A stretch of 64,000 bases of DNA from Tumebacillus avium (lineage in GTDB: Bacteria; Bacillota; Bacilli; Tumebacillales; Tumebacillaceae): contig NZ_CP021434.1 in assembly GCF_002162355.1 (NCBI RefSeq), positions 2,580,501 through 2,644,500 on the forward strand, in the 5' to 3' direction. The notes beneath the pieces are model-generated. The model saw nothing but the letters and a program-made list of their open reading frames with translations, had not been told where the DNA came from and ran no database searches. A program made the position numbers and the translations under genes. Position 1 is the stretch's first letter. Every line of letters starts with the position of its first letter. This document shows, piece after piece, positions 7,930-61,963 of the stretch.

Positions 7930-9801
7930 TTAGAGATAGCGACTGGCCAGCAGGATGGCGAACAGCAGGCCGCCGATGAGCAGAATCAGATGATCGTGGC
8001 GCACAAGGCGCAGTCTCACCGCCGAAGTGCGCCGGTTGCCAAACTTGGCATAGCCGCGCGCTTCCATGGCGACGGAGAGGTCTTCGCCGAGGCGCAGGAC
8101 GGACAGGAGCAGGGGAACGACAACAGCGCTGGTGTCGCGCAGGCGGAAGTTGCCTTTAGTTGATTTGCCCCTTGCTTTGGTGATCCGGGAGAAGCGGCGC
8201 AACTCCTGCAGGATGACCGGCACAAAGCGCAGCATCAAAGACGTGGCGAGGGCAAACGCCTCCACAGGCAGCTTGAATTTCTTGAGCGGGGCAAGTGCGG
8301 TCTCTAAGCCCTGTTTCATCATCAGCTGGCTCGTCGTCGCCGACAGCCACATCCCAAGCAGCATCAGCAGCAAAAACTTATACAGCTGCCCCAGCGTCCG
8401 TTCCGCCGCCGCCCAGTCAAAGGTCACCCCTTCGTCAAAACGCAGCCCGGACAGAGCCATCGAAAACAGGATGAAGAACAGAAACGGTTTCATCATCCGC
8501 CACACGTCCCGTTTCCACATCCCCGCCGCCCACATGCAGCCGATCGTCACCGCCGTCGCCAACGCCAGCCCCGCCCAGCTCTCCTGCACCAGCACCCCCA
8601 GCGACACCAGCAAGTAAAACGCCCACTTCGCGCGAGGGTCAAGCCTGCGGATCATAGCTCCCAGCCCACCCGCTAAAGCCCCGGTCGGGGGAGCCTGCTC
8701 CCGATCTGCAGATTCAACCTGAACGGCTACGGCAGATTGTTGTACCGTTTCAACGCTGTCAAATCTAGTGTCGCTCTCATTGCACCTGGAGTGATTCGAA
8801 TCCGTTTCTGAAGAGCTATCAATCCCAGCGTGATTCGCAATTACAGAAGAGCTCGTACCGGAGTCAAAGTGATTCGCAATTACAGAAGAGCTCGTATCAG
8901 TGTCAGCGTGATTCGTTCTTACAGTAGAGTATACGTTGAAGCTGGGGTCACTCGTATCAGATACAGAGTTTGCATAAGCTGACCCCGACAATTGCTTCAA
9001 GATCTCATCCGCCATCTGATCTGGTGCCAACGGGAGTGGCGTTAGCCCAAATCCCTGAGTGGCGAAAGCCTCAGACAACGCTGTGCTGCTTGGCAACCCG
9101 ACTCTTGCCTGCCGCAGCAGGTGCGGGTTGTCACACAGCTCTTGCGGGGTCGTGTAGGCGGCCAGACGGCCGTGGTCGAGGAGCAGGACGCGGTCGGCGA
9201 TGGGGAAGAAGGCATCGAGATCATGGGTGGCGATGACGATGCCGCCTAGGGTCTGCTGCTTGAAGCTTTGCAGGAACTCCACGAGGTGCTGCACCGCCTG
9301 CGGATCGAGACCGGCGGTCGGCTCGTCAAGAAACAGCCACTTGGGAGCGGTCGCAAAGGTCGTCGCCAGCGCCACACGCCTTTTCTGCCCGCCGCTGAGC
9401 ACGAGCGGGGACTGCGCGGTCATCTCCTCGGGGAGACCAACCTCCCGCAGCGCCTCCAGCGTCCTGGCCGTCGCTTCTGCCTTCGCAAGACGGAGCGGCT
9501 TCAGCGAATAGTCAAACTCCCCCTGCACCGTCCGCGCAAACAATTGATGCTCCGGAAACTGAAACACCACCCCAATCTCCTGCAACACCTTCGCATGCAC
9601 CTGTTTCCCATCCCACAGCGGCACACCGTCATACAGCACCGACCCGGCATCAAAAGCGTTCAATCCGGTCAGCACATCGAGCAGGCTCGACTTCCCTGCC
9701 CCCGTCTGTCCAACGAGCAGGGTGATCGTCCCTTCCTCCAATTCGAACGTCACATCCCGCAAAATACTTCCCAGCGATACTCCATCCACTTTTACCGGCA
9801 T
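7930..9801 (-). CDS. fused ECF transporter ATPase and transmembrane (T) protein
   Basis: 623 residues joining two normally separate ECF components. Residues 1-about 250 are an EcfA-type ATPase: Walker A GQTGAGKSS, signature LSGGQKRR, Walker B LFLDEPTAG. Residues about 265-370 are a polar Ser/Asn/Asp-rich linker made of 13-residue repeats. Residues about 375-623 are an EcfT (CbiQ-like) membrane protein with several hydrophobic segments and the coupling ARG motif near ITKARGKS. ECF modules energise vitamin uptake by S-components such as BioY, which is divergent next door. It overlaps the ecfA1-like gene by 10 bp. Separate A and T genes are the norm; the fusion looks intact. Confidence 0.9.
   Translation of the reverse strand: MPVKVDGVSLGSILRDVTFELEEGTITLLVGQTGAGKSSLLDVLTGLNAFDAGSVLYDGVPLWDGKQVHAKVLQEIGVVFQFPEHQLFARTVQGEFDYSLKPLRLAKAEATARTLEALREVGLPEEMTAQSPLVLSGGQKRRVALATTFATAPKWLFLDEPTAGLDPQAVQHLVEFLQSFKQQTLGGIVIATHDLDAFFPIADRVLLLDHGRLAAYTTPQELCDNPHLLRQARVGLPSSTALSEAFATQGFGLTPLPLAPDQMADEILKQLSGSAYANSVSDTSDPSFNVYSTVRTNHADTDTSSSVIANHFDSGTSSSVIANHAGIDSSSETDSNHSRCNESDTRFDSVETVQQSAVAVQVESADREQAPPTGALAGGLGAMIRRLDPRAKWAFYLLVSLGVLVQESWAGLALATAVTIGCMWAAGMWKRDVWRMMKPFLFFILFSMALSGLRFDEGVTFDWAAAERTLGQLYKFLLLMLLGMWLSATTSQLMMKQGLETALAPLKKFKLPVEAFALATSLMLRFVPVILQELRRFSRITKARGKSTKGNFRLRDTSAVVVPLLLSVLRLGEDLSVAMEARGYAKFGNRRTSAVRLRLVRHDHLILLIGGLLFAILLASRYL
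8792..8947. repeat. four 39-bp tandem repeats inside the A-T fusion linker
   Basis: TGATTCG begins units at 8792, 8831, 8870 and 8909, an exact 39-bp (13-codon) period. The middle two units are nearly identical (both TGATTCGCAATTACAGAAG); the outer two have drifted. On the minus strand they encode 13-residue units such as SSVIANHFDSGTS, so length changes stay in frame. Confidence 0.85.
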
Positions 9802-44109: not shown

Positions 44110-45432
44110 ATGCCAAAAGGCTCGGAATACGAAAGGATGAACAGCCCGATGAACCAGTTTCAAACCCGTGAGGAACGCGGCATCTACGTTCACGTACTGC
44201 CCACCGACAAGTTCCGCATGAACACGATCGTCGCCACTTTTGCGCAGGAGCTGCGCGAAGACACCGCGACGCCATTGGCTTTGCTTCCCTATCTTTTAAA
44301 CCGAGGGTCTGAGCAGTACCCGACCCCGGAGAAACTGCAACTCGCGCTCGACGAACTGTACGGCGCCTCGATGTCGGCCACGATCGACAAAAAAGGGGAG
44401 CGCCAGGTCGTCGACTTCTCGATGAACGTCCCGAACGAGAAATTCCTCAAACAAGGCGAAGGCCTGTTCCAAAAGGCGCTCGGCATTCTCTCCGACGTGA
44501 TGCTCCGCCCGCAGCTGCAGGACGGCGCTTTTCTGCCCGAGTATGTGCAGGCAGAAAAAGAACAGCACAAAAAGCGCATCGCAGCGGTGATCGACGACAA
44601 GATGAACTATGCGGTCGAGCGCTGCAACGAAGAGATGACCAAAGGCGAACCGTATGCCATCCCGCGTCTCGGCTTCGAAAACAAGATCGACGAGATTACT
44701 CCTCAGTCGCTGTTTGACGTGTACCAGCGCCTGCTGAAGACCGCGCCGATCAACATCTATGTGGTCGGCGACGTGGACACCGATGCGGTGGCAGCGGAGA
44801 TCTTCCGCGTCTTTGACATGGAGCGCGACCCGCAAGCCGCGTTTGCCCCGGTGCAGATTCAGCATGAGACCCGCGCCGTCAAAGATGTGGTCGACCGCCT
44901 CGACATCAATCAAGGGAAGCTGAACGTCGGCGTGTGGACCAATGTGGCCTGGGCGTCTGACGACTATGCGGCGATGCAGGTCTGTAACGGCGTGCTTGGC
45001 GCGTTCCCGCATTCCAAACTGTTCGTCAACGTCCGCGAGAAGCACTCGCTGGCTTACTACTGCATGTCCCGCCTCGACGGGCACAAAGGCATCATCAGCG
45101 TCTTTTCCGGTGTGGAATTTGACAAGATCGATCAGGCGCTGGAGATCATCCGCGAGCAGTTTGACGTGCTCAAAAAAGGCGAGATCACCGCAGAGGAGAT
45201 GGAGTTCACGATCGCAGGTCTGGTCAACGCCTACAAGACGGCGATGGACAATCCGACGTCGATCGCCGATTTCCACCTGAACGGCCTGCTCGCCGGGCGC
45301 GTCCGCACGCGCGAAGAAATGATCGACGCCTTCCAAAAGGTCACCGTCGAAGATGTCGTGCGCGTGGCGCAAGGCCTGCAGTTTGATACGATCTACACGC
45401 TTCGCAATGAGGAGGGGAACCACGGTGCGTGA
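44110..45432 (+). CDS. ymfF: M16-family protein YmfF (YfmF), non-catalytic partner
   Basis: Up to 440 residues. M16 insulinase fold (YVHVLPTDKFRMNTI, LLNRGSEQYPTPEKLQLALDELYGA) but the zinc motif HxxEH is absent, as in the family's regulatory subunit. It pairs with YmfH, encoded 8 nt overlapping downstream. The pair is annotated as associated with EF-P aminopentanol modification in Bacillus; such split M16 pairs (AlbE/AlbF) also process RiPP peptides. The ATG at 44110 has AGGAAG at 6 nt; ATG 44137 and 44149 are alternatives. Confidence 0.85.
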   Translation: MPKGSEYERMNSPMNQFQTREERGIYVHVLPTDKFRMNTIVATFAQELREDTATPLALLPYLLNRGSEQYPTPEKLQLALDELYGASMSATIDKKGERQVVDFSMNVPNEKFLKQGEGLFQKALGILSDVMLRPQLQDGAFLPEYVQAEKEQHKKRIAAVIDDKMNYAVERCNEEMTKGEPYAIPRLGFENKIDEITPQSLFDVYQRLLKTAPINIYVVGDVDTDAVAAEIFRVFDMERDPQAAFAPVQIQHETRAVKDVVDRLDINQGKLNVGVWTNVAWASDDYAAMQVCNGVLGAFPHSKLFVNVREKHSLAYYCMSRLDGHKGIISVFSGVEFDKIDQALEIIREQFDVLKKGEITAEEMEFTIAGLVNAYKTAMDNPTSIADFHLNGLLAGRVRTREEMIDAFQKVTVEDVVRVAQGLQFDTIYTLRNEEGNHGA

Positions 45433-46708
45433 AATTCGCAATGAGCAGCTGAAATTATCCGCTTTTCACGATCAACTCGACAACGGACTCGACGTATACG
45501 TGATTCCGCGGGAAGGATTCAAGCAGACGTACGCGCTGTTCTCCACCAAGTACGGCTCGATCGACCGCGAGTTTGTCGTGCCCGGCGAGTCGGAACCGAC
45601 CATCGTGCCGGACGGCATCGCGCACTTTTTGGAGCACAAGATGTTTGAGCAGGAGAACGGGGAGGACGTGTTCAAGACGTTTGCCCGCTATGGCGCGATG
45701 TCGAACGCTTTTACGTCGTTTGACACGACGGCCTACCTGTTCTCGTCGACCGACAATCTGGACGAGAACCTGACCACGCTGCTGAATTATGTGCAGGAGC
45801 CGTATTTTACGGACGAAAACGTGGAAAAAGAAAAAGGGATCATCGAGCAGGAGATCCGCATGTACGATGACGACCCGAACTGGCGCGTCTATTTCAACCT
45901 GATCGAAGGCATGTACCAAGTGCATCCGATCGCGATCGACATCGCCGGCACGGTGGAGACGATCCAGCAGATCGACAAAGAGACGTTGTACAAGTGCTAC
46001 AATACGTTCTACCACCCGAGCAACATGTCGGTCGTCGTGGTTGGCGACTGCGACCCGGCGCGCGTGCATGCGCTGATCCGTGAAAACCAGGCCGGCAAAA
46101 GCTTCGAACGCCAGCCGGAGATCGAGCGTATCTTCCCGAACGAGCCGACCGAGGTGCGCCGTGCCCGTCATGAAGAGCGCATGCAGATCTCGATGCCGAA
46201 GCTGCAGTTCGGCTACAAGGACATGAGCCGTCCGAACGGCAAGGACATGATCATCAACGAGTACGCGACTTCGGTCGGCCTCGAAGCGTTGATCGGGAAA
46301 AGTTCTGCCCTGTTCAACAAAATGTACGAGGCAGGCATCGTCGACAAGCGTTTTGGCTGGTCGTATGACGCGACTCCGCGTTTTGCCCACTCGCTGTTTG
46401 GCGGCAACTCCAAAGATCCGGACCGCGTGCTGCAGGTGGTCGAGGAAGCGTTTGCCGAAGCGGCGCAAAACGGCATCCCGGAGGCAGACTTCAACCGGGC
46501 GCGCAACAAGATGATCGGCCAGATGGTCTCGACGCTCGATTCGGCGCGCGCCATCGCCCGCTATTTCGCGACCTACACGTTCCGCGATGCCGATTTCTTT
46601 GACATCATCGGCGTGATGGAAAGCCTGACCCTGGAGCAAGTCAACCAGCGTTTGCGCGAACATTTGGCGCCGGAGATGCGCACCGTGTCGATCGTGCTGC
46701 CGAAATAA
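45425..46708 (+). CDS. ymfH: M16-family zinc peptidase YmfH (YfmH)
   Basis: 427 residues. The zinc motif HxxEH is intact as HFLEHKMFE near residue 67, with downstream Glu in EKEKGIIEQEI. GTG start overlaps the ymfF stop; SD GGAGGGG. It should form a heterodimer with YmfF. Closed by its own terminator 95 bp before the MFS gene, so co-regulation with the peptide locus is not shown. Confidence 0.88.
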   Translation: MREIRNEQLKLSAFHDQLDNGLDVYVIPREGFKQTYALFSTKYGSIDREFVVPGESEPTIVPDGIAHFLEHKMFEQENGEDVFKTFARYGAMSNAFTSFDTTAYLFSSTDNLDENLTTLLNYVQEPYFTDENVEKEKGIIEQEIRMYDDDPNWRVYFNLIEGMYQVHPIAIDIAGTVETIQQIDKETLYKCYNTFYHPSNMSVVVVGDCDPARVHALIRENQAGKSFERQPEIERIFPNEPTEVRRARHEERMQISMPKLQFGYKDMSRPNGKDMIINEYATSVGLEALIGKSSALFNKMYEAGIVDKRFGWSYDATPRFAHSLFGGNSKDPDRVLQVVEEAFAEAAQNGIPEADFNRARNKMIGQMVSTLDSARAIARYFATYTFRDADFFDIIGVMESLTLEQVNQRLREHLAPEMRTVSIVLPK

Positions 46709-46725
46709 ATTTTCAACAACAACTG

Positions 46726-46770
46726 CCAGCAAGCAGGGTTTCGACCCTGTTTGCTGGTATTTTTATTTTA
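46726..46770 (+). terminator. terminator after ymfFH
   Basis: CCAGCAAGCAGGGT-ttcg-ACCCTGTTTGCTGG followed by a T-rich tract. Confidence 0.9.
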
Positions 46771-46803: not shown

Positions 46804-48048
46804 GTGAACGAGCCATCCTTGTTTCGCAATCGCAATTTCACGCTGCTCTATGTCGGGCAACTCGTCTCGCTGTTTGGAGACTGGTTCCGCGGCGTTGTGA
46901 TGATCGTCATCCTCTATGATCTGCATCCGGCCGCTTCGACCGTTGGCGGGATGTTTATCGCTACGATTCTGCCGACCTTGTTTGGCAGCATCTTTGTGGG
47001 TCCGTTTGTCGACCGCTGGAACAAAAAGAACATCATGATCTGGACCAACCTGCTGCGCTTCGTGCTGACGCTGGCCATGGTGTACGGGGTCTATCTGCAG
47101 AACATCTGGGTGCTTTACGGGCTGATCGTTGTCTCCAGTCTCGTCTCTGCGGCCTTCCAACCGGCGCGTACCGCTGTAATTCCGGAGATCGTCGAAGAGA
47201 AGCAGATCGTAAAAGCAACCTCGTCCTTCGCGATTTTGAACTCGGTGACGATGGTCGTGGCCAGCGCCTTGGGCGGGTTTGTCGCCGACTGGGCAGGTCC
47301 GTATCCGATCATGCTGTTTGATGCTTTCTCCTATCTGTTCTCCGCGATCTGCATCGTGCTGATGAAGTATCAGCCGCAGCAAAAGGAGGTCAAGGAGCGT
47401 CCGCCGTACTGGAAGCAGGTGCGGGAGGGCTACGATTATGTTCTCGCCACGCCGCAGCTGGTCGCCGTCTTTTGGATCACCGCCGCCCGCGACTTCGTGC
47501 TTGGCTATGTCTACATCCTGTTTGCGGTCTTCATCCTCGAAGTGGTGCAGACGGGCAATACGGGGATGGGCATCGGCTATTCAACGACAGCAGTTGCGTA
47601 TCTGATCGGAGCCTGGCTGATCAAGTGGTATTTCAAACAGAAGCCGTTTGATGAAAGCGCCTTTTTCAAAATTTTCCTGCCCTGCCACATCATCTACGGG
47701 GTGGGCCTGGGCGTGATGTTCTCGATGACAGGCTGGTATTGGTTCCTCGTCGCGCTTGTCGTGACCTACATCTTCTCGCAAGGCGTAAACATCATCGCCG
47801 AAACCTCGCTGATGACCTACTCGCGCGTGGACAACCGCGGCCGGGTCGTCGCTTCCTGGCTGACCGCTTCACGCCTCGCCTACGCGATCTCCTTGCCGCT
47901 GTTCTCGGTGATCGGCGGGTACATTCCGATCCATGTCGGCGGTTACATTCTGACGGCCGTCTGCGTGATCTCTGCGCTCTGCGTGTATCCGTGGCTGAAA
48001 ACCGCGCTGGGCACTCAAGTGAAAGAAAAATCGACATTGCAAGCGTAA
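46804..48048 (+). CDS. MFS exporter, cassette A
   Basis: 414 residues, twelve membrane segments. NFTLLYVGQLVSLFGDWFR opens the first helix and FVDRWNKKNIMIW is the conserved loop after helix 2, as in MFS macrolide/peptide efflux-type exporters. It is a clear paralogue of the MFS gene at 51752 (shared GPFVDRWNKK, ALGGF, AETSLMTYSR/TETSLMTYSK). GTG start behind AAAGGAG; own terminator downstream. Location at the head of a Trp-peptide/radical SAM locus suggests peptide export or self-protection. Confidence 0.88.
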   Translation: MNEPSLFRNRNFTLLYVGQLVSLFGDWFRGVVMIVILYDLHPAASTVGGMFIATILPTLFGSIFVGPFVDRWNKKNIMIWTNLLRFVLTLAMVYGVYLQNIWVLYGLIVVSSLVSAAFQPARTAVIPEIVEEKQIVKATSSFAILNSVTMVVASALGGFVADWAGPYPIMLFDAFSYLFSAICIVLMKYQPQQKEVKERPPYWKQVREGYDYVLATPQLVAVFWITAARDFVLGYVYILFAVFILEVVQTGNTGMGIGYSTTAVAYLIGAWLIKWYFKQKPFDESAFFKIFLPCHIIYGVGLGVMFSMTGWYWFLVALVVTYIFSQGVNIIAETSLMTYSRVDNRGRVVASWLTASRLAYAISLPLFSVIGGYIPIHVGGYILTAVCVISALCVYPWLKTALGTQVKEKSTLQA

Positions 48049-48080
48049 AGAACCCTTGGCTACTAAGGGTTCTTCTTTTT
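48048..48080 (+). terminator. terminator after MFS A
   Basis: AAGAACCCTT-ggctact-AAGGGTTCTT then TTTTTT; separates the exporter from the peptide gene. Confidence 0.9.
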
Positions 48081-48128
48081 TATTGTGTGTCGAAGTTTGT
48101 AGATTAATATTAAATTACTTATTACCTA

Positions 48129-48157
48129 TTGAAAAGGGAAATTACTAGAAATATAAT
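48129..48157 (+). promoter_or_regulatory. promoter of repeat peptide gene
   Basis: -35 TTGAAA (48129-48134), exactly 17 bp, -10 TATAAT (48152-48157). A near-consensus SigA promoter dedicated to the small peptide gene. Confidence 0.85.
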
Positions 48158-48202
48158 AACTATATGCAAGGCATAGTTTACTAAATAGTGGAGGTGTTAA
48201 AC

Positions 48203-48310
48203 ATGGAAAAGAACTCCTGGATCATCAATGTGGAGAAAAACTCTTGGATCATCAACGAGCGCAACTGGATCGTTGTTCAAGAGCGCAACTGGATCATTGT
48301 TGCAGTTTAA
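48203..48310 (+). CDS. 35-residue four-repeat Trp peptide (candidate RiPP precursor)
   Basis: A 35-codon ORF with SD GGAGGTG and a near-consensus promoter. It is four tandem units, MEKNSWIIN, VEKNSWIIN, ERNWIVVQ and ERNWIIVAV, each with one Trp followed by Ile-Ile/Val. No separate leader is seen. A terminator-like hairpin follows, then the radical SAM gene. The same Trp-Ile-Val signature recurs in three micro-ORFs before the second radical SAM gene. I infer a multi-core substrate for the HemN-like enzyme; a translational-attenuation leader is the main alternative. No known family is recognised. Confidence 0.8.
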   Translation: MEKNSWIINVEKNSWIINERNWIVVQERNWIIVAV

Positions 48311-48333
48311 TTGCTGAGAACTGATCTTTTGCT

Positions 48334-48371
48334 GACGGAGCGGGAACTGTGGTTCTCTCTCCGTCTTTCCT
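48334..48371 (+). terminator. attenuator-like hairpin between peptide and radical SAM gene
   Basis: GACGGAG ... CTCCGTC enclosing GAAC/GTTC, followed by TTTCCTT, a weak T tract. Partial termination would give more peptide mRNA than enzyme mRNA. Confidence 0.7.
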
Positions 48372-48437
48372 TAACGGCGTTAGAACTCATTGAGTTATCA
48401 TATACAAAAAATGGGAATCATAGGAGGCGTTTCTGAA

Positions 48438-49802
48438 ATGTCCAATCACGGAACCAAAGAATTGCCGTTTTCCAGCCTGCCGAAGATGTGGGTCTATCTG
48501 TACCCGTATCTCTCGCGCGGCGAACTGACGGTTGAACATGTGCACCAGTTTTTGCAGCAGGCAGCACCCAACCGTGGCAAGAAGACGTTGTACATGCACG
48601 TGCCGTTCTGTGACACGATCTGCACGTTCTGCCCGTTTGTCCGCTCGACCAACTACGCGGATAAGCTGCAGCCGTACGTGGACGCGCTGGTCAAAGAACT
48701 CAAGACGATCGCAGCCACTCCGCGCATGCAAGGCGTTGCGCTCGACGCGATCTTTGTTGGCGGCGGCACGCCGTCGGTGCTTTCGCCGCAGCAGATTCAC
48801 CTGATCGGCGAGACGATCCACAGCAACTTCAAGCTGAAAGAAGACTATGAGTGGACGTTTGAAGTCGAAGCGAAAAGCGCGACGGAAGACAAGCTGAAAG
48901 CGATGCATGAGGTCGGCGTGAACCGGATGTCGTTTGGCGTTCAGACGTTCAACCCGAAATTCCGCAAGATGTTCAACCTGACCGCATCGCACGATGAGAT
49001 CAAGCGCACCCGCGAACTGGCCGGGAAGTACTTCAAAGGTTTCAACATGGACCTCCTGTACCAGTTGCCGGGCCAGACGATGGAAGAGATCGTGCAGGAT
49101 CTGCAACACGCGGTCGAACTGAACACGACCTCGATCGACGCCTATCCGCTCGATTACACGATCACTTCGAAAGGCTTCCTGCAGTCGATCAAAAACGAGC
49201 GCCTGCCGAAACCGCCGAATGCGTACGAAAAAGTGGCGCAGCAGGAACTGGTCACCAACTTCCTCGTCGAGCATGGCTACAGCCAAGAGTTTATCTACAC
49301 CTTCATCCGCCAAGATGCGGAGCACAGACGTTTCGTCTTTGGCGAAACCTTGTACGGCCACTATGAAGACGAGTGCATCGGCGCAGGGCTCTCCGCGTTC
49401 TCGTACCAGGCCGGCATGGTCTACCGCAACTTCGATACGGTGGAAGAATACATCCGCGCCGTCGATGCAAATGGGCTGGCTGCCGACATCGTCAACGAGT
49501 ACCACGCGAAAGAGAAAGGCCTGATCTACTTCCCGAAACGGATGTCGATCGACACCGACGACATCGATCGTCAGGAGCTCGATGTGCGTTTCTACCAGCT
49601 GCTCGATGAGTTTGAAGCAAAAGGGCTGATCGTGCGTGAAGGCAACAAGCTCAAGCTGACCCGTGAAGGCCAGCCGTGGTACATGAACATGATGATCGAA
49701 ATGCTGCCGGAGCGCACGCGCAACCTGCACGAGACGATCTCCTCCCGACTGAACGAACGGGCGGACTTCACGTTTGACGATGAACTGATCGTCTTCAACT
49801 AA
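48438..49802 (+). CDS. HemN-like radical SAM enzyme, cassette A
   Basis: 454 residues from the ATG behind GGAGG (in-frame ATG 48390 precedes the SD). The 4Fe-4S motif CxxxCxxC is C58-DTI-C62-TF-C65 in HVPFCDTICTFCPF. HemN/HemW-family segments GGGTPSVLSP, GVNRMSFGVQTFNP and NMDLLYQLPGQT follow, then a C-terminal HemN-like domain of about 140 residues. HemN-type class C enzymes include coproporphyrinogen oxidases and methyl or cyclopropane transferases. No heme genes are nearby; the adjacent Trp peptide suggests peptide modification. Confidence 0.88.
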   Translation: MSNHGTKELPFSSLPKMWVYLYPYLSRGELTVEHVHQFLQQAAPNRGKKTLYMHVPFCDTICTFCPFVRSTNYADKLQPYVDALVKELKTIAATPRMQGVALDAIFVGGGTPSVLSPQQIHLIGETIHSNFKLKEDYEWTFEVEAKSATEDKLKAMHEVGVNRMSFGVQTFNPKFRKMFNLTASHDEIKRTRELAGKYFKGFNMDLLYQLPGQTMEEIVQDLQHAVELNTTSIDAYPLDYTITSKGFLQSIKNERLPKPPNAYEKVAQQELVTNFLVEHGYSQEFIYTFIRQDAEHRRFVFGETLYGHYEDECIGAGLSAFSYQAGMVYRNFDTVEEYIRAVDANGLAADIVNEYHAKEKGLIYFPKRMSIDTDDIDRQELDVRFYQLLDEFEAKGLIVREGNKLKLTREGQPWYMNMMIEMLPERTRNLHETISSRLNERADFTFDDELIVFN

Positions 49803-49814
49803 AAACTTTCAACC

Positions 49815-49843
49815 AACCGGACTGAATACAGTCCGGTTTTTTT
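49815..49843 (+). terminator. terminator after radical SAM A
   Basis: AACCGGACT-gaatac-AGTCCGGTT then TTTTT. Confidence 0.92.
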
Positions 49844-49975
49844 AATGTCCGATTACAACAAGCATTTCAAAGGACAAAACAAAATGATTTTCAGTTAATC
49901 ATTGAAATCACGTGTAATAATTTGTTTTACCCTTAAATATCTATATACCGTAAGCAAGACGAGGAGGTGTGCGGC
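49844..49975 (+). promoter_or_regulatory. AT-rich region before micro-ORF cluster
   Basis: 132 bp with no ORF. It holds an imperfect inverted repeat TGATTTTCA/TTGAAATCA (49885-49910) and AT-rich hexamers (TATATA 49942), so the cluster B promoter and a regulator site probably lie here. No hexamer pair with ideal spacing is found. Confidence 0.45.
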
Positions 49976-50008
49976 GTGAAACAATGGATCATCATCGCGG
50001 CTGAGTAG
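49976..50008 (+). CDS. micro-ORF B1, Trp peptide of 10 residues
   Basis: GTG start 8 nt after GAGGAGGTG, an ideal SD. It encodes (M)KQWIIIAAE, then TAG. The Trp-Ile-Ile-Ile core matches the units of the 35-residue peptide at 48203. Too short for gene finders. Candidate leaderless precursor of the radical SAM enzyme at 50300. Confidence 0.6.
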   Translation: MKQWIIIAAE

Positions 50009-50059
50009 TCCGGTCTTATGTATCGTTTGGAAGGAAAACGCTTGCGAGAGGGGGTGCCA

Positions 50060-50116
50060 ATGATGCAAAAATGGCTGCCGGTTGTGGAGTGGATTTCCGT
50101 TGTAGTTGTTGAGTAG
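50060..50116 (+). CDS. micro-ORF B2, Trp peptide of 18 residues
   Basis: ATG behind GAGAGGGGGTG encodes MMQKWLPVVEWISVVVVE, two Trp units in one ORF (QKWLPVV and EWISVVVV). An in-frame ATG at 50018 would add MYRLEGKRLREGVP, a possible short leader, but has a weak SD. Same signature and setting as B1 and B3. Confidence 0.6.
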   Translation: MMQKWLPVVEWISVVVVE

Positions 50117-50183
50117 TTACTGGTGTGGATTGCTCCGACAAGGTTTTTGCTGCGCCACAGGTACTCGGAGAGGGGGCGGAACC

Positions 50184-50213
50184 ATGCGCGAGTGGATCGT
50201 AGTAGCTGCTTAA
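50184..50213 (+). CDS. micro-ORF B3, Trp peptide of 9 residues
   Basis: ATG 7 nt after AGAGGGGG encodes MREWIVVAA, then TAA. It is the shortest of the set and nearly equals the last unit of the 35-residue peptide (ERNWIIVAV). Followed by a hairpin and the radical SAM gene. Confidence 0.6.
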   Translation: MREWIVVAA

Positions 50214-50241
50214 CATAACCTGGCACATTTGTTCACATACC

Positions 50242-50269
50242 GGCTGACAGGGGGCGACCTCTGTCAGCC
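50242..50269 (+). terminator. hairpin between micro-ORFs and radical SAM B
   Basis: Perfect 9-bp stem GGCTGACAG / CTGTCAGCC with a 10-base loop and no T tract. It may be an attenuator or an mRNA-stability/processing hairpin, in the same position as the hairpin in cassette A. Confidence 0.6.
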
Positions 50270-50299
50270 CCTGACCACGAAAAGGGGGTACTTACAAAG

Positions 50300-51661
50300 A
50301 TGTCGCAGCACAACGCATTGCCCTACAAAAAGCTGCCTAACATGTGGAACTATCTCTACCCGTTCATTCAAGATGGGCCAGAACCGGTGGAGACCGTTCG
50401 TCAATTTTTGAACTCGACGCGCACGCCGCTGCCCGGAACGAAATCGCTGTATGTGCACATTCCGTTCTGTGACACGATCTGCACGTTCTGTCCGTTCATC
50501 CGCTCGACGAACTACCAAGACAAACTGCAGCCCTACGTGGATGCGCTGCTGAAAGAGTTGAAAGCCATCGCCAGCACGCCGTATGTCAAGCAGATGAAGC
50601 TTGATGCAGTCTATGTCGGCGGCGGCACGCCTTCCGTTTTGTCTCCGAAGATGATCGAAGACCTCTGCACGACGATCCGCGAGAATTTCAATCTCAAGGA
50701 TGGAGTCGAGTGGAGCTTCGAAGTCGAAGCGAAGAGCGCTTCCGAAGACAAGCTGAAAGCGATGGCGGCGAACGGTGTCAACCGGATCTCCTTCGGTGTG
50801 CAGACGTTTAACCCGTACTACCGCAAGCTGTTTAACCTGACCGCATCGCTCGACGAGATCAAGCAGACCCGCGACCTCGCCGACAAGTACTTCAAAGCGT
50901 ACAACATGGACCTCCTGTACCAACTGCCTGGCCAGACGATCGAGCAGTTGCATGAGGACCTGGAGAACGTGCGTCAACTGTCCACCACCACCGTTGACGT
51001 CTATCCGCTGGAGTACCTCGTCACCTCCAAAGGCTTCCTGAACATGATCAAAGACGGCAAAGTACCGGAGCCGCCGAAAGCGGACGACAAAGTGCTGCAG
51101 CACCAATTCGTCAACTCCTACCTGCTCAACCACGGGTACGAGCAGACGCACATCTACACCTTCGCCAAAGGCGATGCCAAGTACAAAGACTTCAAATTCG
51201 GCGCGACCATCTACGGCCGTTACGAAGACGAGTACATCGGCTGCGGCCAGGCGGCTGCTTCCTACCTGAGTGGCATGTCGCACATGAACGTCGTGAAGAC
51301 CGACGAGTACATCCGCGCGGTCGAAAACGGCACTTTGCCGGTCATGCGCGCGCAAGAGTACGAGGCGAAAGAAAAAGGCCTGATCTACTTCGCGAAACAC
51401 ATGAAAGTCAGCCTCGAGTACCTGCGTCAGCACAACCTGCCGTCCGAGTACTGGGAGAAGATCGAGAAGCACGAAAAAATGGGTCTGGTCGTGCAGGAAG
51501 ACGGCTTGCTCAAGCTGACCGAGCTCGGCAAGATCTGGTACATGCACGTCATGATCGACCTGCTGCCGGAACAGCAGAAGAAGACGTACGACACCTACGT
51601 CGAAGTGCTGCAGAAAGACAAAGATTTCATTGAAGACACCGAGCTTACTGTCATTCAATAA
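50300..51661 (+). CDS. HemN-like radical SAM enzyme, cassette B
   Basis: 453 residues, a close paralogue of the enzyme at 48438 and colinear with it from MSQHNALPYKKLPNMW on. 4Fe-4S cysteines are C57, C61 and C64 in HIPFCDTICTFCPF; GGGTPSVLSP, GVNRISFGVQTFNP and NMDLLYQLPGQT are shared. SD AAAGGGGGT. It follows three Trp micro-ORFs and precedes an MFS exporter. The two enzymes likely act on the related peptide sets; reaction unknown (methylation, cyclopropanation, oxidation or cross-linking at Trp are options). Confidence 0.88.
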   Translation: MSQHNALPYKKLPNMWNYLYPFIQDGPEPVETVRQFLNSTRTPLPGTKSLYVHIPFCDTICTFCPFIRSTNYQDKLQPYVDALLKELKAIASTPYVKQMKLDAVYVGGGTPSVLSPKMIEDLCTTIRENFNLKDGVEWSFEVEAKSASEDKLKAMAANGVNRISFGVQTFNPYYRKLFNLTASLDEIKQTRDLADKYFKAYNMDLLYQLPGQTIEQLHEDLENVRQLSTTTVDVYPLEYLVTSKGFLNMIKDGKVPEPPKADDKVLQHQFVNSYLLNHGYEQTHIYTFAKGDAKYKDFKFGATIYGRYEDEYIGCGQAAASYLSGMSHMNVVKTDEYIRAVENGTLPVMRAQEYEAKEKGLIYFAKHMKVSLEYLRQHNLPSEYWEKIEKHEKMGLVVQEDGLLKLTELGKIWYMHVMIDLLPEQQKKTYDTYVEVLQKDKDFIEDTELTVIQ

Positions 51662-51668
51662 GCGTTTG

Positions 51669-51707
51669 CCAGCATGAAGAAGCCAGATGCTTCATGCTGG
51701 TCTTTGC
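51669..51707 (+). terminator. hairpin between radical SAM B and MFS B
   Basis: CCAGCATGAAG / CTTCATGCTGG with an interrupted T tract (TCTTTGCTTG); probably a leaky terminator, permitting read-through to the exporter. Confidence 0.7.
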
Positions 51708-51751
51708 TTGTTGCTTGTCCTGATGCGCTTTGGAAATAAGGGGGGCTGGAC

Positions 51752-53011
51752 ATGTCCACAGCAACAACGGAGAAATTGCCGTCTCCGTTTAAAAACCGCA
51801 ATTTTACATTGCTTTATTACGGTCAGATGATCTCGCTGTTTGGCGATTGGTTTAAAACGATCGCCCTGATCTCCGTCATTTATGCGATTGTGCCCAATGC
51901 GGCATCGATCGGCGGCCTGTTTATCGCCAGCGTCCTGCCGGTGCTGTTCGGCGGCATCGTCATGGGTCCGTTCGTCGACCGCTGGAACAAAAAGCACCTG
52001 ATGATCTGGGTGGACATCCTGCGCGTGTTCTCGACGCTTGGGATCATCGCAGGCGTGATGCTTGCGAACATCTGGGTGATCTATGTCTGCATCGCGTTTG
52101 GCGCGTTTGCTTCGGCTGCGTTTGCGCCGGCGAGAACGTCGATGATCCCGGAGATTTTGAAAGAGAAAAACCTGATCGCGGCGACCTCGTCGTTTGCGCT
52201 GCTCACTTCGACCACGATGGTGCTGGCGAGCGCCTTGGGCGGCTTTTTGGCCCAGTGGATCGGGGCGGTGAACATTCTGTATTTCGATGCGTTCTCCTAT
52301 GTGGTGTCGGCAGTGTTTATCGGGCTGATGAAGTATCAGCCGTTGGAGAAGCCGGTGAACAAGCGTCCGCCTTATCTGCAGCAGGTGAAAGAGGGCATCG
52401 ATTTCGTGAAAAAATGCCCGCAGCTGGTCGGCGTGTTCTGGCTGCAATTCTTCCGCGACTTCTGCCTCGGCTTCATCTACATCCTGTTCCCGCTGTATGT
52501 GCTCAATGAGCTGAAGGCAGGAGATGCCGGCGTCGGCATCGGGTATTCGGTGACGGCGGTGGCGTATATCATCGGCGCGTTTTTGCTGAAGCAGTACTTT
52601 AAGAAGCGCAAGTTTGATGACAGCTCGTACTTCAAGATCTACTTCCCGGCCAATATGTTGTACGGGATCGGGCTTGGCTGCATGTTTATCATCCACAACT
52701 GGTATTTGTTCTTTGCGGTGATGCTGCTCGCGAACATCTTCCAGTCCAAGGTCAACGTGATCACGGAGACCTCGCTGATGACCTACTCCAAGCCGGAACT
52801 GCGCGGCCGCGTCGTGGCGACCTGGCTGTCGATGTCCCGTCTGGCCTACGGAATCTCGCTCCCGCTGTTCTCGGCGATCGGCGGATTCATCCCCAGCGCC
52901 ATCGGCGGCTGGATGCTGGCCGCGATCTGCGTAGTGTCGGCAGCCGTGCTGATGCTGTGGCTGAAAGGGAAGCTGCAGAGCGGTCAGGTGGCGGAAGAGC
53001 AGGCGGTGTAA
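51752..53011 (+). CDS. MFS exporter, cassette B
   Basis: 419 residues, twelve membrane segments, paralogous to the exporter at 46804 (FVDRWNKKHLMIW, ITETSLMTYSKPELRGRVVATW). It opens NFTLLYYGQMISLFGDWFK. ATG behind AAGGGGGG. The locus therefore has two exporters flanking two radical SAM enzymes, all on one strand. Substrate unknown; export of the modified Trp peptides is the simplest inference. Confidence 0.88.
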   Translation: MSTATTEKLPSPFKNRNFTLLYYGQMISLFGDWFKTIALISVIYAIVPNAASIGGLFIASVLPVLFGGIVMGPFVDRWNKKHLMIWVDILRVFSTLGIIAGVMLANIWVIYVCIAFGAFASAAFAPARTSMIPEILKEKNLIAATSSFALLTSTTMVLASALGGFLAQWIGAVNILYFDAFSYVVSAVFIGLMKYQPLEKPVNKRPPYLQQVKEGIDFVKKCPQLVGVFWLQFFRDFCLGFIYILFPLYVLNELKAGDAGVGIGYSVTAVAYIIGAFLLKQYFKKRKFDDSSYFKIYFPANMLYGIGLGCMFIIHNWYLFFAVMLLANIFQSKVNVITETSLMTYSKPELRGRVVATWLSMSRLAYGISLPLFSAIGGFIPSAIGGWMLAAICVVSAAVLMLWLKGKLQSGQVAEEQAV

Positions 53012-53031: not shown

Positions 53032-53068
53032 AAACGGATTCGGGCGGGGGCCCGGGTCCGTTTTTTTA
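53032..53068 (+). terminator. terminator after MFS B
   Basis: ACGGA..CGGGC-gggg-GCCCG..TCCGT followed by seven T. Confidence 0.88.
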
Positions 53069-54880: not shown

Positions 54881-55088
54881 TTGTGATTTGTGCAAATGAT
54901 TCATTGTAACCCAAAAATGGATACCGTATACTGAAACTGGGAAAACTAGATGCAACAGGATATCCTTTCGAGGATGCCCGCCATTTTCGTGCAAAAAGAC
55001 AACCCTCGAAAAAATTGCAGTCTGAGGAACCATCTCGATTCATGAAAAACCGCATGATGACTGAGGTTAAAGCCGACCTTCAAGGTCG
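54881..55088 (+). promoter_or_regulatory. leader of CRISPR array 1
   Basis: Nearly identical over about 200 bp to the region before array 2 (59650-59851) and directly abutting the first repeat. The last 17 bases CCGACCTT-C-AAGGTCGG (55073-55089) form a palindrome whose final G is the first base of repeat 1. Degenerate repeats at the far end of the array confirm that the leader is on this side. Confidence 0.85.
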
Positions 55089-58000
55089 GTCACATTGAAA
55101 GACCCGAGTAGAAGGGGACTGAAAGGTGGAAGCCGCTCACCGCCATGAAGCTGAACGTTTGGCGTCACATTGAAAGACCCGAGTAGAAGGGGACTGAAAG
55201 TGCATGAGAAATTAATTCCGCTACAATCTAGCCATAGTCACATTGAAAGACCCGAGTAGAAGGGGACTGAAAGTGATTACGATGAGGTGGTGGGCAGACA
55301 GAGCAATTGCGTCACATTGAAAGACCCGAGTAGAAGGGGACTGAAAGCTCGACCACCTCGAAGATCTTGTCGTCTACGCCGCTCGGTCACATTGAAAGAC
55401 CCGAGTAGAAGGGGACTGAAAGATACAGTTCTGAGACCATCACAAGCAATGCTTGATAAGTCACATTGAAAGACCCGAGTAGAAGGGGACTGAAAGTTCC
55501 ATTTGCAAAAATCTTGCGCTGGGTCAGCATTTACGTCACATTGAAAGACCCGAGTAGAAGGGGACTGAAAGTTTATTTATTCCAGAATGGCTTTTTCTTG
55601 TAACGTATCGTCACATTGAAAGACCCGAGTAGAAGGGGACTGAAAGCTGACGATCAACGGCTTGGCCGTCGCTACGGATGTACGTCACATTGAAAGACCC
55701 GAGTAGAAGGGGACTGAAAGGGATAGTCTTCGTGCCGTACGTACCGGACGCGGAGTCGTCACATTGAAAGACCCGAGTAGAAGGGGACTGAAAGTGCTCG
55801 GGCCCTTCTCGATTGATTCCGGAATCGGAAGTCACATTGAAAGACCCGAGTAGAAGGGGACTGAAAGTTGAGCTGTTCATAAGCACCGGCGAGATTGTTG
55901 TTCAGTCACATTGAAAGACCCGAGTAGAAGGGGACTGAAAGTTGGGCGTAGACTTCCGCCACTCGCACGCGTTGCCTCGTCACATTGAAAGACCCGAGTA
56001 GAAGGGGACTGAAAGCAAGGATGCCGAAGTAGTACATGCCTTTCACCTCATTGGTCACATTGAAAGACCCGAGTAGAAGGGGACTGAAAGTGCTATATCA
56101 AGGTTTTCTAGGTGGTGCATAATCGTTGTCACATTGAAAGACCCGAGTAGAAGGGGACTGAAAGGGCATTCAGGACTTCTGCGAAGTTGGACAGATAATG
56201 GTCACATTGAAAGACCCGAGTAGAAGGGGACTGAAAGTTTGGGAGCCGCACAAGTGGCACGTACTCCCTCCTTGAGTCACATTGAAAGACCCGAGTAGAA
56301 GGGGACTGAAAGATAAGGCAAAGGTTTTCGGTGAAATCGCTTTGGAAGAAGTCACATTGAAAGACCCGAGTAGAAGGGGACTGAAAGCGCACAAGACGGA
56401 ATTTATCGAGGACAATCCGGGACGTCACATTGAAAGACCCGAGTAGAAGGGGACTGAAAGTTGATCGGTATCGTTGCTTGTTCTTGCAAGAGCTGAAGTC
56501 ACATTGAAAGACCCGAGTAGAAGGGGACTGAAAGGAAAAAGCCCAACGCTCCGGGATGCGATCGGAAATCGTCACATTGAAAGACCCGAGTAGAAGGGGA
56601 CTGAAAGTCGGGGTGGTAGTGATCTACAACATATGCTTTGTGCGGGTCACATTGAAAGACCCGAGTAGAAGGGGACTGAAAGTCGGGGTGGTAGTGATCT
56701 ACAACATATGCTTTGTGCGGGTCACATTGAAAGACCCGAGTAGAAGGGGACTGAAAGTTTCGTCCACGTAGGGCGGAACTTCACCGTTACGAGGTCACAT
56801 TGAAAGACCCGAGTAGAAGGGGACTGAAAGACATCGGGCCCATCGCAGCAAGCGGGCCAAGAAAGTCGTCACATTGAGAGACCCGAGTAGAAGGGGACTG
56901 AAAGAGTTCGATGCCATTTCCGTTAAGGAATCGGTTACGAGTCACATTGAGAGACCCGAGTAGAAGGGGACTGAAAGATTTGAAAAGCATAAGAAGCAGA
57001 ATCAAGAGAAGAAGGTCACATTGAGAGACCCGAGTAGAAGGGGACTGAAAGTTGAGATCACCTGCAGGGATCTCCTTACGATGACCCAAGTCACATTGAG
57101 AGACCCGAGTAGAAGGGGACTGAAAGTTCTTGAGCGGCTCTCCACCATTGAGTCGCAGGAACAGTCACATTGAGAGACCCGAGTAGAAGGGGACTGAAAG
57201 TCGGAACCGTCCGTGTTGCGGAACAGCAGCACATAAGTCACATTGAGAGACCCGAGTAGAAGGGGACTGAAATAGTTCTGATCAAGGAGCGCTTTGGTTT
57301 CCTCTGATTCGTCACATTGAGAGACCCGAGTAGAAGGGGACTGAAAGAGATCGCGGAGCGTGTCCGTAGTTTGGCGTGTAGCCTGCGTCACATTGAGAGA
57401 CCCGAGTAGAAGGGGACTGAAAGTCCGCGGCGACCGCAGTTGAGTACCAAGTTTCTGACGTCACATTGAGAGACCCGAGTAGAAGGGGACTGAAAGCGTT
57501 ATAGCTGTCGGCCGCCATTAACATTCCGGCGAAGTCACATTGAGAGACCCGAGTAGAAGGGGACTGAAAGCCAGATGCAGGCACTGCACCTTCTCCGCCT
57601 CTTTGACGTCACATTGAGAGACCCGCGTAGAAGGGGACTGAAAGATCATGACCAATTTGCATCGGTACTTGCGCAATTCGAGTCACATTGAGAGACCCGA
57701 GTAGAAGGGGACTGAAAGAGGTACTGGTCGAGCTCTTTCCAGACAAACGGCAGCGGTCACATTGAGAGACCCGAGTAGAAGGGGACTGAAAGGGTTGAAG
57801 ATCTCCGCGATCCGGGCGACCGGTTCGTAGTCACATTGAGAGACCCGAGTAGAAGGGGACTGAAAGGAAACTTCAGCCCAATCAGCCTAACATCTCTACA
57901 CATGTCACATTGAGAGACCCGAGTAGAAGGGGACTGAAAGAGCAAAATAAAAAGGCGATAGAATCATACTTCGATTGTCACATTGAGAGACTCGAGTAGA

Positions 58001-58440: not shown

Positions 58441-58490
58441 GAAGTAGACCTCCTTGGCCGGGAAGCTCAAGGGAGGTCTACTTCTTTTTT
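58441..58490 (+). terminator. plus-strand terminator overlapping toxin 3' end
   Basis: 13-bp stem GAAGTAGACCTCC / GGAGGTCTACTTC then TTTTTT. It would end a plus-strand RNA antisense to the toxin mRNA tail, as in type I antitoxin RNAs such as RatA. Confidence 0.75.
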
Positions 58491-58594
58491 AGTAGGTTAA
58501 GTATGGCGATGACCACAGACAGCACACCGAATATGACCGCAGCAATTAGTGAGCCAAATCCAATCATCACAGTGAGCCATTGGTAATCCGTCAT
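58478..58594 (-). CDS. Hol-Tox-like type I toxin, 38 residues
   Basis: MTDYQWLTVMIGFGSLIAAV then a second hydrophobic run and NLLKKK at the end; 38 residues with one membrane helix and a basic tail, matching the pattern of the putative holin-like toxin family (TxpA/BsrG-like; FGSLI motif). SD AAGGGGGTGA precedes the ATG. Too short for gene finders. Convergent terminators on both strands suggest an antisense antitoxin overlapping the 3' end. It sits between the two CRISPR arrays. Confidence 0.78.
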   Translation of the reverse strand: MTDYQWLTVMIGFGSLIAAVIFGVLSVVIAILNLLKKK

Positions 58595-59609: not shown

Positions 59610-59851
59610 TGAAAACCTCGCTCTCAGCATGCGAGGTCTTTTGTTGTAATTTGTGCAAATGATTCATTGTAACCCAAAAATGGATACCGTATACTGAAAC
59701 TGGGAAAGCTAGATACAACAGGATATCCTTTCGAGGATGCCCGCCATTTTCGTGCAAAAAGACAATCCTCGAAAAAATTGTAGTCAGGGGAACCATCTCG
59801 ATTCATGAAAACCCGCATGAAGACTGAGTTTAAAGCCGACCCTCAAGGTCG
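59610..59851 (+). promoter_or_regulatory. leader of CRISPR array 2
   Basis: Nearly identical to the leader of array 1, including GATATCCTTTCGAGGATG and the junction palindrome (here CCGACCCT-C-AAGGTCGG, one mismatch). The old hydrolase terminator is also copied, with one T-tract change. Confidence 0.85.
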
Positions 59852-61963
59852 GTCACATTGAGAGACCCGAGCAGAAGGGGACTGAAAGTAGTGATAATGA
59901 CCAGTTATAACTGCAAATCACCAAGTCACATTGAGAGACCCGAGCAGAAGGGGACTGAAAGTGGCGATCCAACGGCGTGTTGAACATCACCGAGATGTTG
60001 TCACATTGAGAGACCCGAGCAGAAGGGGACTGAAAGTCGTTTCACAGGTGGATTTCGGCACGAATTTTGAATCGTCACATTGAGAGACCCGAGCAGAAGG
60101 GGACTGAAAGTCTCGGAAGTCATATTTGTTTCTAGTAATAAACGGTTTAGTCACATTGAGAGACCCGAGCAGAAGGGGACTGAAAGGTTGGCCAAAAATA
60201 GAGACCTGCCGGATCGTCTTAGCGTCACATTGAGAGACCCGAGCAGAAGGGGACTGAAAGGGTTGTAGGCTTCATCCCAAAGCCCTCCTGTCAAAAGTCA
60301 CATTGAGAGACCCGAGCAGAAGGGGACTGAAAGTGTTACACCGTCGGCCAACTCCTGAAAGCTGTGGGGCGTCACATTGAGAGACCCGAGCAGAAGGGGA
60401 CTGAAAGAGTTATTCAGTAAATCAGGAGACGATAAATTATTATCGTCACATTGAGAGACCCGAGCAGAAGGGGACTGAAAGAGTTATTCAGTAAATCAGG
60501 AGACGATAAATTATTATCGTCACATTGAGAGACCCGAGCAGAAGGGGACTGAAAGAGGTATCCAATAAGGATACCCACGGCTACAATGATAAAGTCACAT
60601 TGAGAGACCCGAGCAGAAGGGGACTGAAAGGATCTTTTTGGGACATCCCGGTGGCTAACTGCATGAGTCACATTGAGAGACCCGAGCAGAAGGGGACTGA
60701 AAGCGAATGCCGTCCGCGCCGCTCATAGGCACCACGCCAGTGTCACATTGAGAGACCCGAGCAGAAGGGGACTGAAAGTGTGAGTCGAGCAGAATGTCCG
60801 GGTTTTCAATCGCAAGTCACATTGAGAGACTCGAGCAGAAGGGGACTGAAAGACCAGTAGGCGGAAACACTGAGGTTTCACCAGACGGTCGTCACATTGA
60901 GAGACCCGAACAGAAGGGGACTGAAAGCTTGGAAATCTTGGTCAACAGGTAACGTTACACCGTCTGTCACATTGAGAGACCCGAGCAGAAGGGGACTGAA
61001 AGAATGGAGCTCTATGTCGCGAATTTCAACAGCTCCGGGTCACATTGAGAGACCCGAGCAGAAGGGGACTGAAAGTTTGGTACTGCGCTACCAACTCCCG
61101 CTCCAAATCGCGTCACATTGAGAGACCCGAGCAGAAGGGGACTGAAAGCATCATCGAAACCTTGCAAATCCTCTGGAAAAAACAGTCACATTGAGAGACC
61201 CGAGCAGAAGGGGACTGAAAGTCCGTCAGCACCATAGCCTTGCTGTCTCTCAACGGCAGTCACATTGAGAGACCCGAGCAGAAGGGGACTGAAAGCAGCA
61301 AATCGGCCAAGGCCAATTTAGTCTCTTCGGTTGTCACATTGAGAGACCCGAGCAGAAGGGGACTGAAAGAGAACTACTGCCGCAAACAGAAAACAGCCAA
61401 TTGTTTTGTCACATTGAGAGACCCGAGCAGAAGGGGACTGAAAGTGAACTTTTTCAGGCCATCCGCTTGAGAAACCGCCCGTCACATTGAGAGACCCGAG
61501 CAGAAGGGGACTGAAAGCGGATCGATTGGATTCTGTAAGGGTGGTCGGATCGAGTCACATTGAGAGACCCGAGCAGAAGGGGACTGAAAGAACTCAGAGA
61601 TGAACAGCACATCTCCATCCGCTTCGTCGTCACATTGAGAGACCCGAGCAGAAGGGGACTGAAAGAAAGGGTGACGGATGGACATACATTATCGTAATTT
61701 TTTGTCACATTGAGAGACCCGAGCAGAAGGGGACTGAAAGGTGAAAGTTGCTACCTCAAACCATGCCGGTTCGTTGAGTCACATTGAGAGACCCGAGCAG
61801 AAGGGGACTGAAAGTCTTCCTCGACCTGCGCCTGATCCACTGGCGGCGGCAGTCACATTGAGAGACCCGAGTAGAAGGGGACTGAAAGTTCTGTATCTAA
61901 TTTATTTTTGTTTTTTTGAAAAAAAAGAGTCATATTGAGAGACCAGAGTACAGGGGACATATT
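59852..61963 (+). CRISPR. CRISPR array 2, 29 repeats of 37 bp
   Basis: Repeats differ from array 1 in CCGAGCAGAAG (C for T). I count 28 full repeats, 59852 to 61888, plus a decayed one at 61929-61963. Variants: 60816 (CTCGAGC), 60891 (CCGAACAG). The last full repeat (61852) reads GAGTAG, the array 1 form. Spacers 60408-60444 and 60482-60518 are identical. cas6 starts 28 bp after the decayed repeat. Confidence 0.97.

Follow-up and report, generated by a model that had tools for sequence, protein, structure and literature searches.

Two diverged cassettes of Trp micropeptides, HemN-like radical SAM enzymes, and MFS exporters in Tumebacillus avium: a probable undescribed RiPP family

RiPP discovery normally proceeds from leader peptides, RRE domains, or annotated precursors; the locus described here has genes for peptides of 9 to 15 amino acids that come with none of these. 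The class C methylases NosN/NocN, TbtI, and PbtM2/PbtM3 have aromatic heterocycles in peptide-derived molecules as their targets; their role is tailoring within large thiopeptide clusters, in which the precursors are long and bear a leader. Known HemN-fold enzymes in general act on planar aromatic (hetero)cycles, namely, porphyrinogen, heme, indolic acid, and thiazole. Extremely short (pentapeptide) precursors and small clusters are found in the biarylitides, in which a cytochrome P450 cross-links aromatic residues and there is no radical SAM enzyme. Radical SAM chemistry on Trp or other aromatic residues of small peptides produces streptide and tryglysin (RaS-RiPPs) and the triceptide-type cyclophanes. 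These rely on SPASM-domain enzymes with auxiliary clusters and on leader peptides, often under Rgg/SHP regulation. The TVG poly-cyclopropylglycine peptides (TvgA/TvgB) combine a repeated short precursor motif, TVGG, which has no Trp, with one radical SAM enzyme, of the SPASM type, and exporters.

We analyzed a window of 64,000 nucleotides (the whole stretch of DNA under study), positions 2580501-2644500 of the 5.25-Mb, single-contig T. avium genome. The nearest named relative at the locus is Tumebacillus lacus. The sequence-only reading had placed on one strand an MFS gene (MFS1), a 35-amino-acid (aa) peptide with four Trp residues (peptide 1), a radical SAM gene (rSAM1), three micro-ORFs of 10, 18, and 9 aa, a second radical SAM gene (rSAM2), and a second MFS gene (MFS2). 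We found all of them present in this order on the plus strand and at the positions given for them, and strong Shine-Dalgarno (SD) sites precede all the micro-ORFs. The features are as follows, in window coordinates.

46724..46759, plus strand: intrinsic-terminator-like hairpin that divides the locus from an upstream M16 peptidase pair
46804..48048, plus strand: MFS1 exporter, MefA/EntS-type MFS, 414 aa (Pfam MFS_1, 1.4e-34; best NCBIfam match TIGR00900, below cut-off)
48048..48074, plus strand: terminator-like hairpin 3' of MFS1
48129..48157, plus strand: sigma-70-type promoter-like site before peptide 1, TTGAAA-17-TATAAT (11/12; a consensus match only)
48203..48310, plus strand: precursor peptide 1, MEKNSWIINVEKNSWIINERNWIVVQERNWIIVAV, 35 aa, four [S/N]-W-I-x-[V/N] units; SD GTGGAGGTG
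48334..48365, plus strand: hairpin separating peptide 1 from rSAM1, at which transcription may partly terminate
48438..49802, plus strand: rSAM1, HemN-like radical SAM enzyme, 454 aa, C-DTI-C-TF-C motif
49815..49838, plus strand: terminator 3' of rSAM1, end of cassette 1
49976..50008, plus strand: micro-ORF 2a, MKQWIIIAAE, 10 aa, GTG start; SD GAGGAGGTG
50060..50116, plus strand: micro-ORF 2b, MMQKWLPVVEWISVVVVE, 18 aa, two Trp units
50184..50213, plus strand: micro-ORF 2c, MREWIVVAA, 9 aa
50242..50269, plus strand: 12-bp hairpin GGCTGACAGGGG/CCTCTGTCAGCC between the array and rSAM2, kept in genomes G012 and G013
50300..51661, plus strand: rSAM2, HemN-like radical SAM enzyme, 453 aa (AlphaFold2 model, pLDDT 92, HemN fold)
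51752..53011, plus strand: MFS2 exporter, same family as MFS1
53042..53063, plus strand: terminator-like hairpin 3' of MFS2

The hairpins and the promoter-like site split the locus into MFS1, peptide 1 with rSAM1, and the three-micro-ORF array with rSAM2 and MFS2. In both cassettes, a stable hairpin that lacks a clean U-tract separates the peptide genes from the enzyme, as it does in G012, G013, G364, and Cytobacillus kochii. This is compatible with, and no proof of, partial termination that would give more peptide than enzyme. We recognized no RRE domain (no such family was among the Pfam hits), protease, or immunity gene in the locus, nor an NRPS or other downstream enzyme, and there is no P450 among the locus genes in the window. 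A search of Rfam gave no match, and thus no known RNA element was recognized. The M16 peptidase pair directly upstream (YfmF/YfmH, 44110-46708) adjoins the system in the window genome, G012, G013, and T. lacus. It is probably a housekeeping neighbor because it is missing beside the loci of G008, G009, and G011. Downstream, the window holds large CRISPR repeat arrays from 55089 to about 61900, with about 71 repeats of GTCACATTGAAAGACCCGAGTAGAAGGGGACTGAAAG at a period of 73 to 75. Their 226-nt leader-like segment is duplicated (54900-55125 and 59663-59888, 95% identical). Between the arrays, on the minus strand at 58478-58594, an SD-preceded ORF encodes a 38-aa hydrophobic peptide, MTDYQWLTVMIGFGSLIAAVIFGVLSVVIAILNLLKKK, which we take to resemble a holin-like type I toxin.

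The enzymes and exporters had been read as paralogous pairs, and this agrees with what we found: rSAM1 and rSAM2 are 54 to 55% identical, and the best-matching family of MFS1 is also that of MFS2. The same reading had noted four Trp units in each peptide set. This holds in T. avium, but the relatives differ, with 3 and 4 units in G013 and 2 and 7 in G012. The four-unit symmetry is a coincidence of the T. avium strain.

We compared the locus with 14 close (clade I) relatives, which belong to Tumebacillus, two other Bacilli families, and a Cytobacillus plasmid. The sequence-only reading had named homologues without nearby Trp micro-ORFs as evidence against itself; we found none among these close homologues, and SD-preceded peptides with W-[I/L/V/F]-x-[V/I/L] lie beside the enzyme at 14/14 loci. 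The central proposal, that HemN-like enzymes and leaderless, ultra-short Trp peptides probably make a new natural product, is thus well supported, and it is the four-unit symmetry that falls away. All six other genomes of the Tumebacillus family have the system. Orthologues of peptide 1 have three units in locus L019 (10000-10080) and two in L018 (10655-10702), and that of micro-ORF 2a in L019 is MKQWIVVAAE. G012 (L018) has seven micro-ORFs before rSAM2 and MSWIIHERNWIIIEN for cassette 1, with degenerate copies in between, and the G013 peptide is MEKNWIIAVERNWIVVQERNWIIVAA. In T. lacus (L001), four micro-ORFs (MREWIVVVEN, MREWIIVVEN, MREWIVIVEN, and MRKDWLVVV) lie downstream of the enzyme and the MFS gene, last in the operon. 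In G008, G009, and G011, the peptides are 12 to 33 aa long, for the most part repeats (for example, MSKWISVEPLWIAVEPLWLPVVPVAE), and are encoded on the other strand from the enzyme and MFS genes. This is the orientation at L021, L022, and L023, and the peptides of L021 have their own promoter-like site (10/12, with TG) and terminator-like site.

Beyond the family, MSNEWISVKNEWIAV occurs twice in G364, where near-identical transposase-like ORFs flank the locus on both sides; G204 and G240 encode MRQVNEWVAL and MRQSTEWFTV. The C. kochii plasmid encodes MKKEWVALKNEWVAL, which is absent from the gene table of that record, the sole annotated one in clade I. The system is rare and partly mobile: we found it in 11 of 399 class-level genomes, and among 398 phylum-level genomes only the window's own genome has it. 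A phage origin was also considered and rejected, as tblastn against phages returned only HemN-like matches of 26 to 34%. We also observed, at 8284-8492 on the minus strand of L018, apparently decayed micro-ORF copies (MREWLSIV... and MRAWMV...) between intact ones, which suggests birth and death of peptide genes.

Clade I loci contain 31 distinct SD-preceded ORFs of 8 to 40 codons with the motif, which together carry 54 Trp units, at 1 to 7 peptide genes per enzyme. As a control, we took the DNA flanking 11 loci (326 kb with both strands counted), where one of the 258 SD-preceded starts of 8-to-40-codon ORFs had [x]W[ILVF]x[VIL]. Similarly, a degenerate MREWI[IV]V pattern had five matches in 14 whole genomes, all within the arrays, and its reversed control had none. 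Judged from these counts, the Trp micro-ORFs at the loci are not there by chance. The residue after Trp (W+1) is I, L, V, or F in 54/54 units (I40/L10/V3/F1), the W+3 residue is V, I, or L in 50/54 (V41/I6/L3, with N, H, and A as deviants), and W-1 is E in 26/54. The motif was used in part for finding the ORFs, which biases the W+1 and W+3 counts toward it and leaves the whole-genome and flank controls unaffected. Codon variation at W+1 is 0.42, 0.00, and 0.51 at the three positions, so that position 2 never differs and position 3 often does, and the W+3 codons likewise vary mostly at third and not second bases. Codons that are held at position 2 and free at position 3 point to selection at the protein level. 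In the clade I peptides, the first Trp is preceded by no more than about 6 residues, and there is no leader. Peptide and enzyme divergences are correlated (Mantel test, r 0.54, p 0.0002), which is expected for partners and also follows from simple co-inheritance.

The best NCBIfam match of both enzymes, over nearly their full length, is the heme-degrading methyltransferase ChuW/HutW (TIGR04107), at 221.7 and 219.5 bits against a cut-off of 400. Matches to HemN and HemW reach 156 and 161 bits at best (cut-offs, 325 and 205), and rSAM1 and rSAM2 fall below the curated cut-offs for HemN, HemW, HemZ, and HutW. A separate HemW-like gene is present in the T. avium genome. The possibility that these would prove to be heme-pathway enzymes, which had been raised against the sequence-only reading, is therefore not borne out. 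For the rSAM2 model, HemN was the top fold match over the full length (TM 0.73-0.76, E 1e-26), and NocN ranks second among sequence relatives in the PDB. CxxxCxxC is the sole conserved Cys set, its three Cys residues being widely conserved among 22 sequences. We found no profile match to a SPASM domain with auxiliary clusters and no extra conserved Cys in these 22 sequences, and we rejected a SPASM-type enzyme on the latter ground. Tyr51 is invariant (22/22) and aligns with NocN Tyr34 and HemN Tyr56, which stack on the second SAM (SAM II) (PMC12871812). From the fold and this one residue, we predict that the enzyme binds two molecules of SAM, like HemN and NocN. Most of the enzyme family also keeps an N-terminal W/Y-N-x-x-Y/F-P segment; in HemN, the N terminus forms a "trip-wire," which is bound loosely and may have a part in substrate association (PMC12871812).

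In a tree of 22 enzymes and two HemW outgroup rows, a second clade (clade II) splits off at about 30% identity. Clade II loci also lie beside Trp peptides, in which aliphatic residues precede Trp and Trp ends the unit (PIIW repeats, DIVWDIVW, and leader-bearing ...SEW*). An Alicyclobacillus plasmid (L042) encodes MRDIVWDIVW, and a T. lacus genome (L024) encodes MENQPIIWKNVEPIIWKNAAEPIIWNNEVAPIIW plus MERNILIIW. L025, L026, L027, and L036 have a leader-core-like peptide of ~50 aa ending in ...RVVSEW or RLLSEW; their clusters contain the HemN-like enzyme and B12-binding radical SAM enzymes, with an MFS gene in most and a solute-binding protein in some. Glaesserella and Xenorhabdus plasmids (L043, 1204-1278, and L059, 2372-2443) encode 23- to 24-aa peptides, ME(N/S)A(I/M)ELF...W, near genes for AdoMet decarboxylase, the HemN-like radical SAM enzyme, and MFS, and for a P450 too in Glaesserella. 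In total, a P450 gene adjoins that of the HemN-like enzyme in two clade II relatives. A Klebsiella plasmid has the only clade II locus without a recognizable Trp peptide; a transposase gene lies inside it, and the DNA upstream resembles a transposon insertion. A family search centered on the clade II genome G340 returned only G340 itself. As a side observation, the Xenorhabdus plasmid enzyme is annotated hutW and scores far below the hutW cut-off. Trp is, by sequence, the common denominator of the clade I and clade II peptides.

We favor, with a probability of roughly 0.78, the reading that the locus consists of two diverged cassettes and that these belong to an undescribed RiPP family, with Trp modules modified by the HemN-like enzyme and the product exported by the MFS protein. 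According to this model, each micro-ORF would be translated into a complete, essentially leaderless peptide with one or more W-[I/L]-x-V modules, and the enzyme, with one [4Fe-4S] cluster, would recognize the module itself. Since there is no leader, recognition would have to be by module, and this would explain how modules are freely duplicated into arrays or fused into repeats. The modification site would most likely be the Trp indole or its beta carbon. An invariant indole fits as a target because the HemN-fold enzymes act on planar aromatic rings. As first-choice chemistry we propose class C-type one-carbon transfer, which would add 14 Da per module; the alternative would be HemN-type hydrogen abstraction to a dehydro or cross-linked product (-2 Da). 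We infer that one-carbon transfer to the indole is likelier than hydrogen abstraction (at Trp C-beta or a neighboring aliphatic residue), which in turn is likelier than other chemistry. A dedicated MFS pump would then export the short product, either intact or after trimming by housekeeping peptidases, for whatever biological role it may have. Export is proposed because the MFS linkage is constant in clade I.

Other readings of the same genes can be weighed against this model. If the micro-ORFs were regulatory leader peptides (Trp- or drug-sensing attenuators), ribosome stalling on them would control the enzyme or MFS gene. Such control would suit the layout upstream of rSAM1 and rSAM2, where short ORFs that start behind strong SD sites are followed by hairpins. 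It would also suit the resemblance of the MFS proteins to Mef efflux pumps, since some efflux genes have leader peptides. The peptides of L021 to L023, however, are on the opposite strand, with the promoter- and terminator-like sites of their own in L021, and those of T. lacus are downstream of both genes. Peptides so placed would be substrates in trans and not attenuator leaders, and on this sequence evidence the orientation already largely refutes the attenuator reading. Arrays of seven, repeat peptides of 26 to 35 aa, and conserved W+1 and W+3 residues are unlike stalling leaders, there is no Rfam match, and we consider attenuation very improbable. Still less credible is that the enzymes are heme-pathway proteins (HemN, HemW, or HutW) with coincidental micro-ORF neighbors. 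The HutW match of 220 bits speaks for this, but none of the cut-offs (400, 325, and 205 bits) is reached, no heme genes are nearby, the genome has its own HemW-like gene, and the micro-ORFs found at 14/14 loci are lacking beside the two other HemN-like genes of the T. avium genome.

The peptides might instead be sacrificial scaffolds on which Trp is modified, after which peptidases would free the modified Trp or a di- or tripeptide for export by the MFS protein as a small molecule. MFS pumps usually carry small molecules, the locus has no protease gene, and the peptides are very short. There is also a precedent in RufO, which modifies a pentapeptide that is later used as a building block (PMC12951456). 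Against this, the W+1 and W+3 conservation suits part of a product, though recognition alone could explain it, and the locus has no NRPS or other downstream enzyme; we regard a scaffold role as possible but unlikely. A similarly doubtful proposal is that the enzyme forms small cyclophane-like rings by a cross-link between Trp and the conserved aliphatic residue in position +3 (or +1). It draws on the strong conservation of V, I, or L at W+3 and on Aro-x-x-N motifs, which are predicted cyclophane substrates of other radical SAM enzymes (PMC9062424). Those enzymes, however, belong to a SPASM-type family and carry auxiliary clusters (PMC9062424), whereas the enzyme here has one cluster motif and the HemN fold, and the aliphatic residues of clade II peptides come before Trp.

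By kind, the system of Trp modules and a HemN-like enzyme is probably a RiPP system, and as a class it looks new. We found no description of it in the open-licence literature, and no curated family tested fits. We lean toward regarding it as a RiPP class of its own, defined by a HemN-type two-SAM enzyme as the sole installer of a new Trp modification, leaderless peptides, recognition by module, arrays that multiply and decay, and a wider branch of Trp-peptide-modifying HemN-like enzymes; that branch would include Trp-last peptides with a cobalamin radical SAM enzyme, P450, or AdoMet decarboxylase. If the enzyme modifies these peptides, this would be a minimal, leader-free system for radical modification of Trp on very short peptides, and a HemN branch usually annotated as coproporphyrinogen oxidase or HutW would be one that makes peptides.

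Among described systems, the class C methylases share with the T. avium enzyme the HemN-type fold, the single CxxxCxxC cluster motif, and a conserved Tyr, equivalent to the one that stacks on SAM II in NocN. In contrast to the thiopeptide systems, the HemN-like enzyme here would act alone, on precursors of 9 to 35 aa without a leader. The T. avium enzymes score well below the cut-off for ChuW/HutW, and their locus has Trp peptides and an MFS pump in place of a heme uptake context. With the biarylitides, the T. avium system shares extremely short precursors and small clusters; the two differ in the type of enzyme. Streptide, tryglysin, and the triceptide-type cyclophanes resemble it in pairing a radical SAM enzyme with Trp or aromatic residues of small peptides, but the T. 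avium locus has none of their SPASM domain, auxiliary clusters, leader, or Rgg/SHP regulation. The TvgA/TvgB system is similar in its repeated short motif, single radical SAM enzyme, and exporters, and it differs from the T. avium system in its TVGG motif, SPASM enzyme, and lack of Trp.
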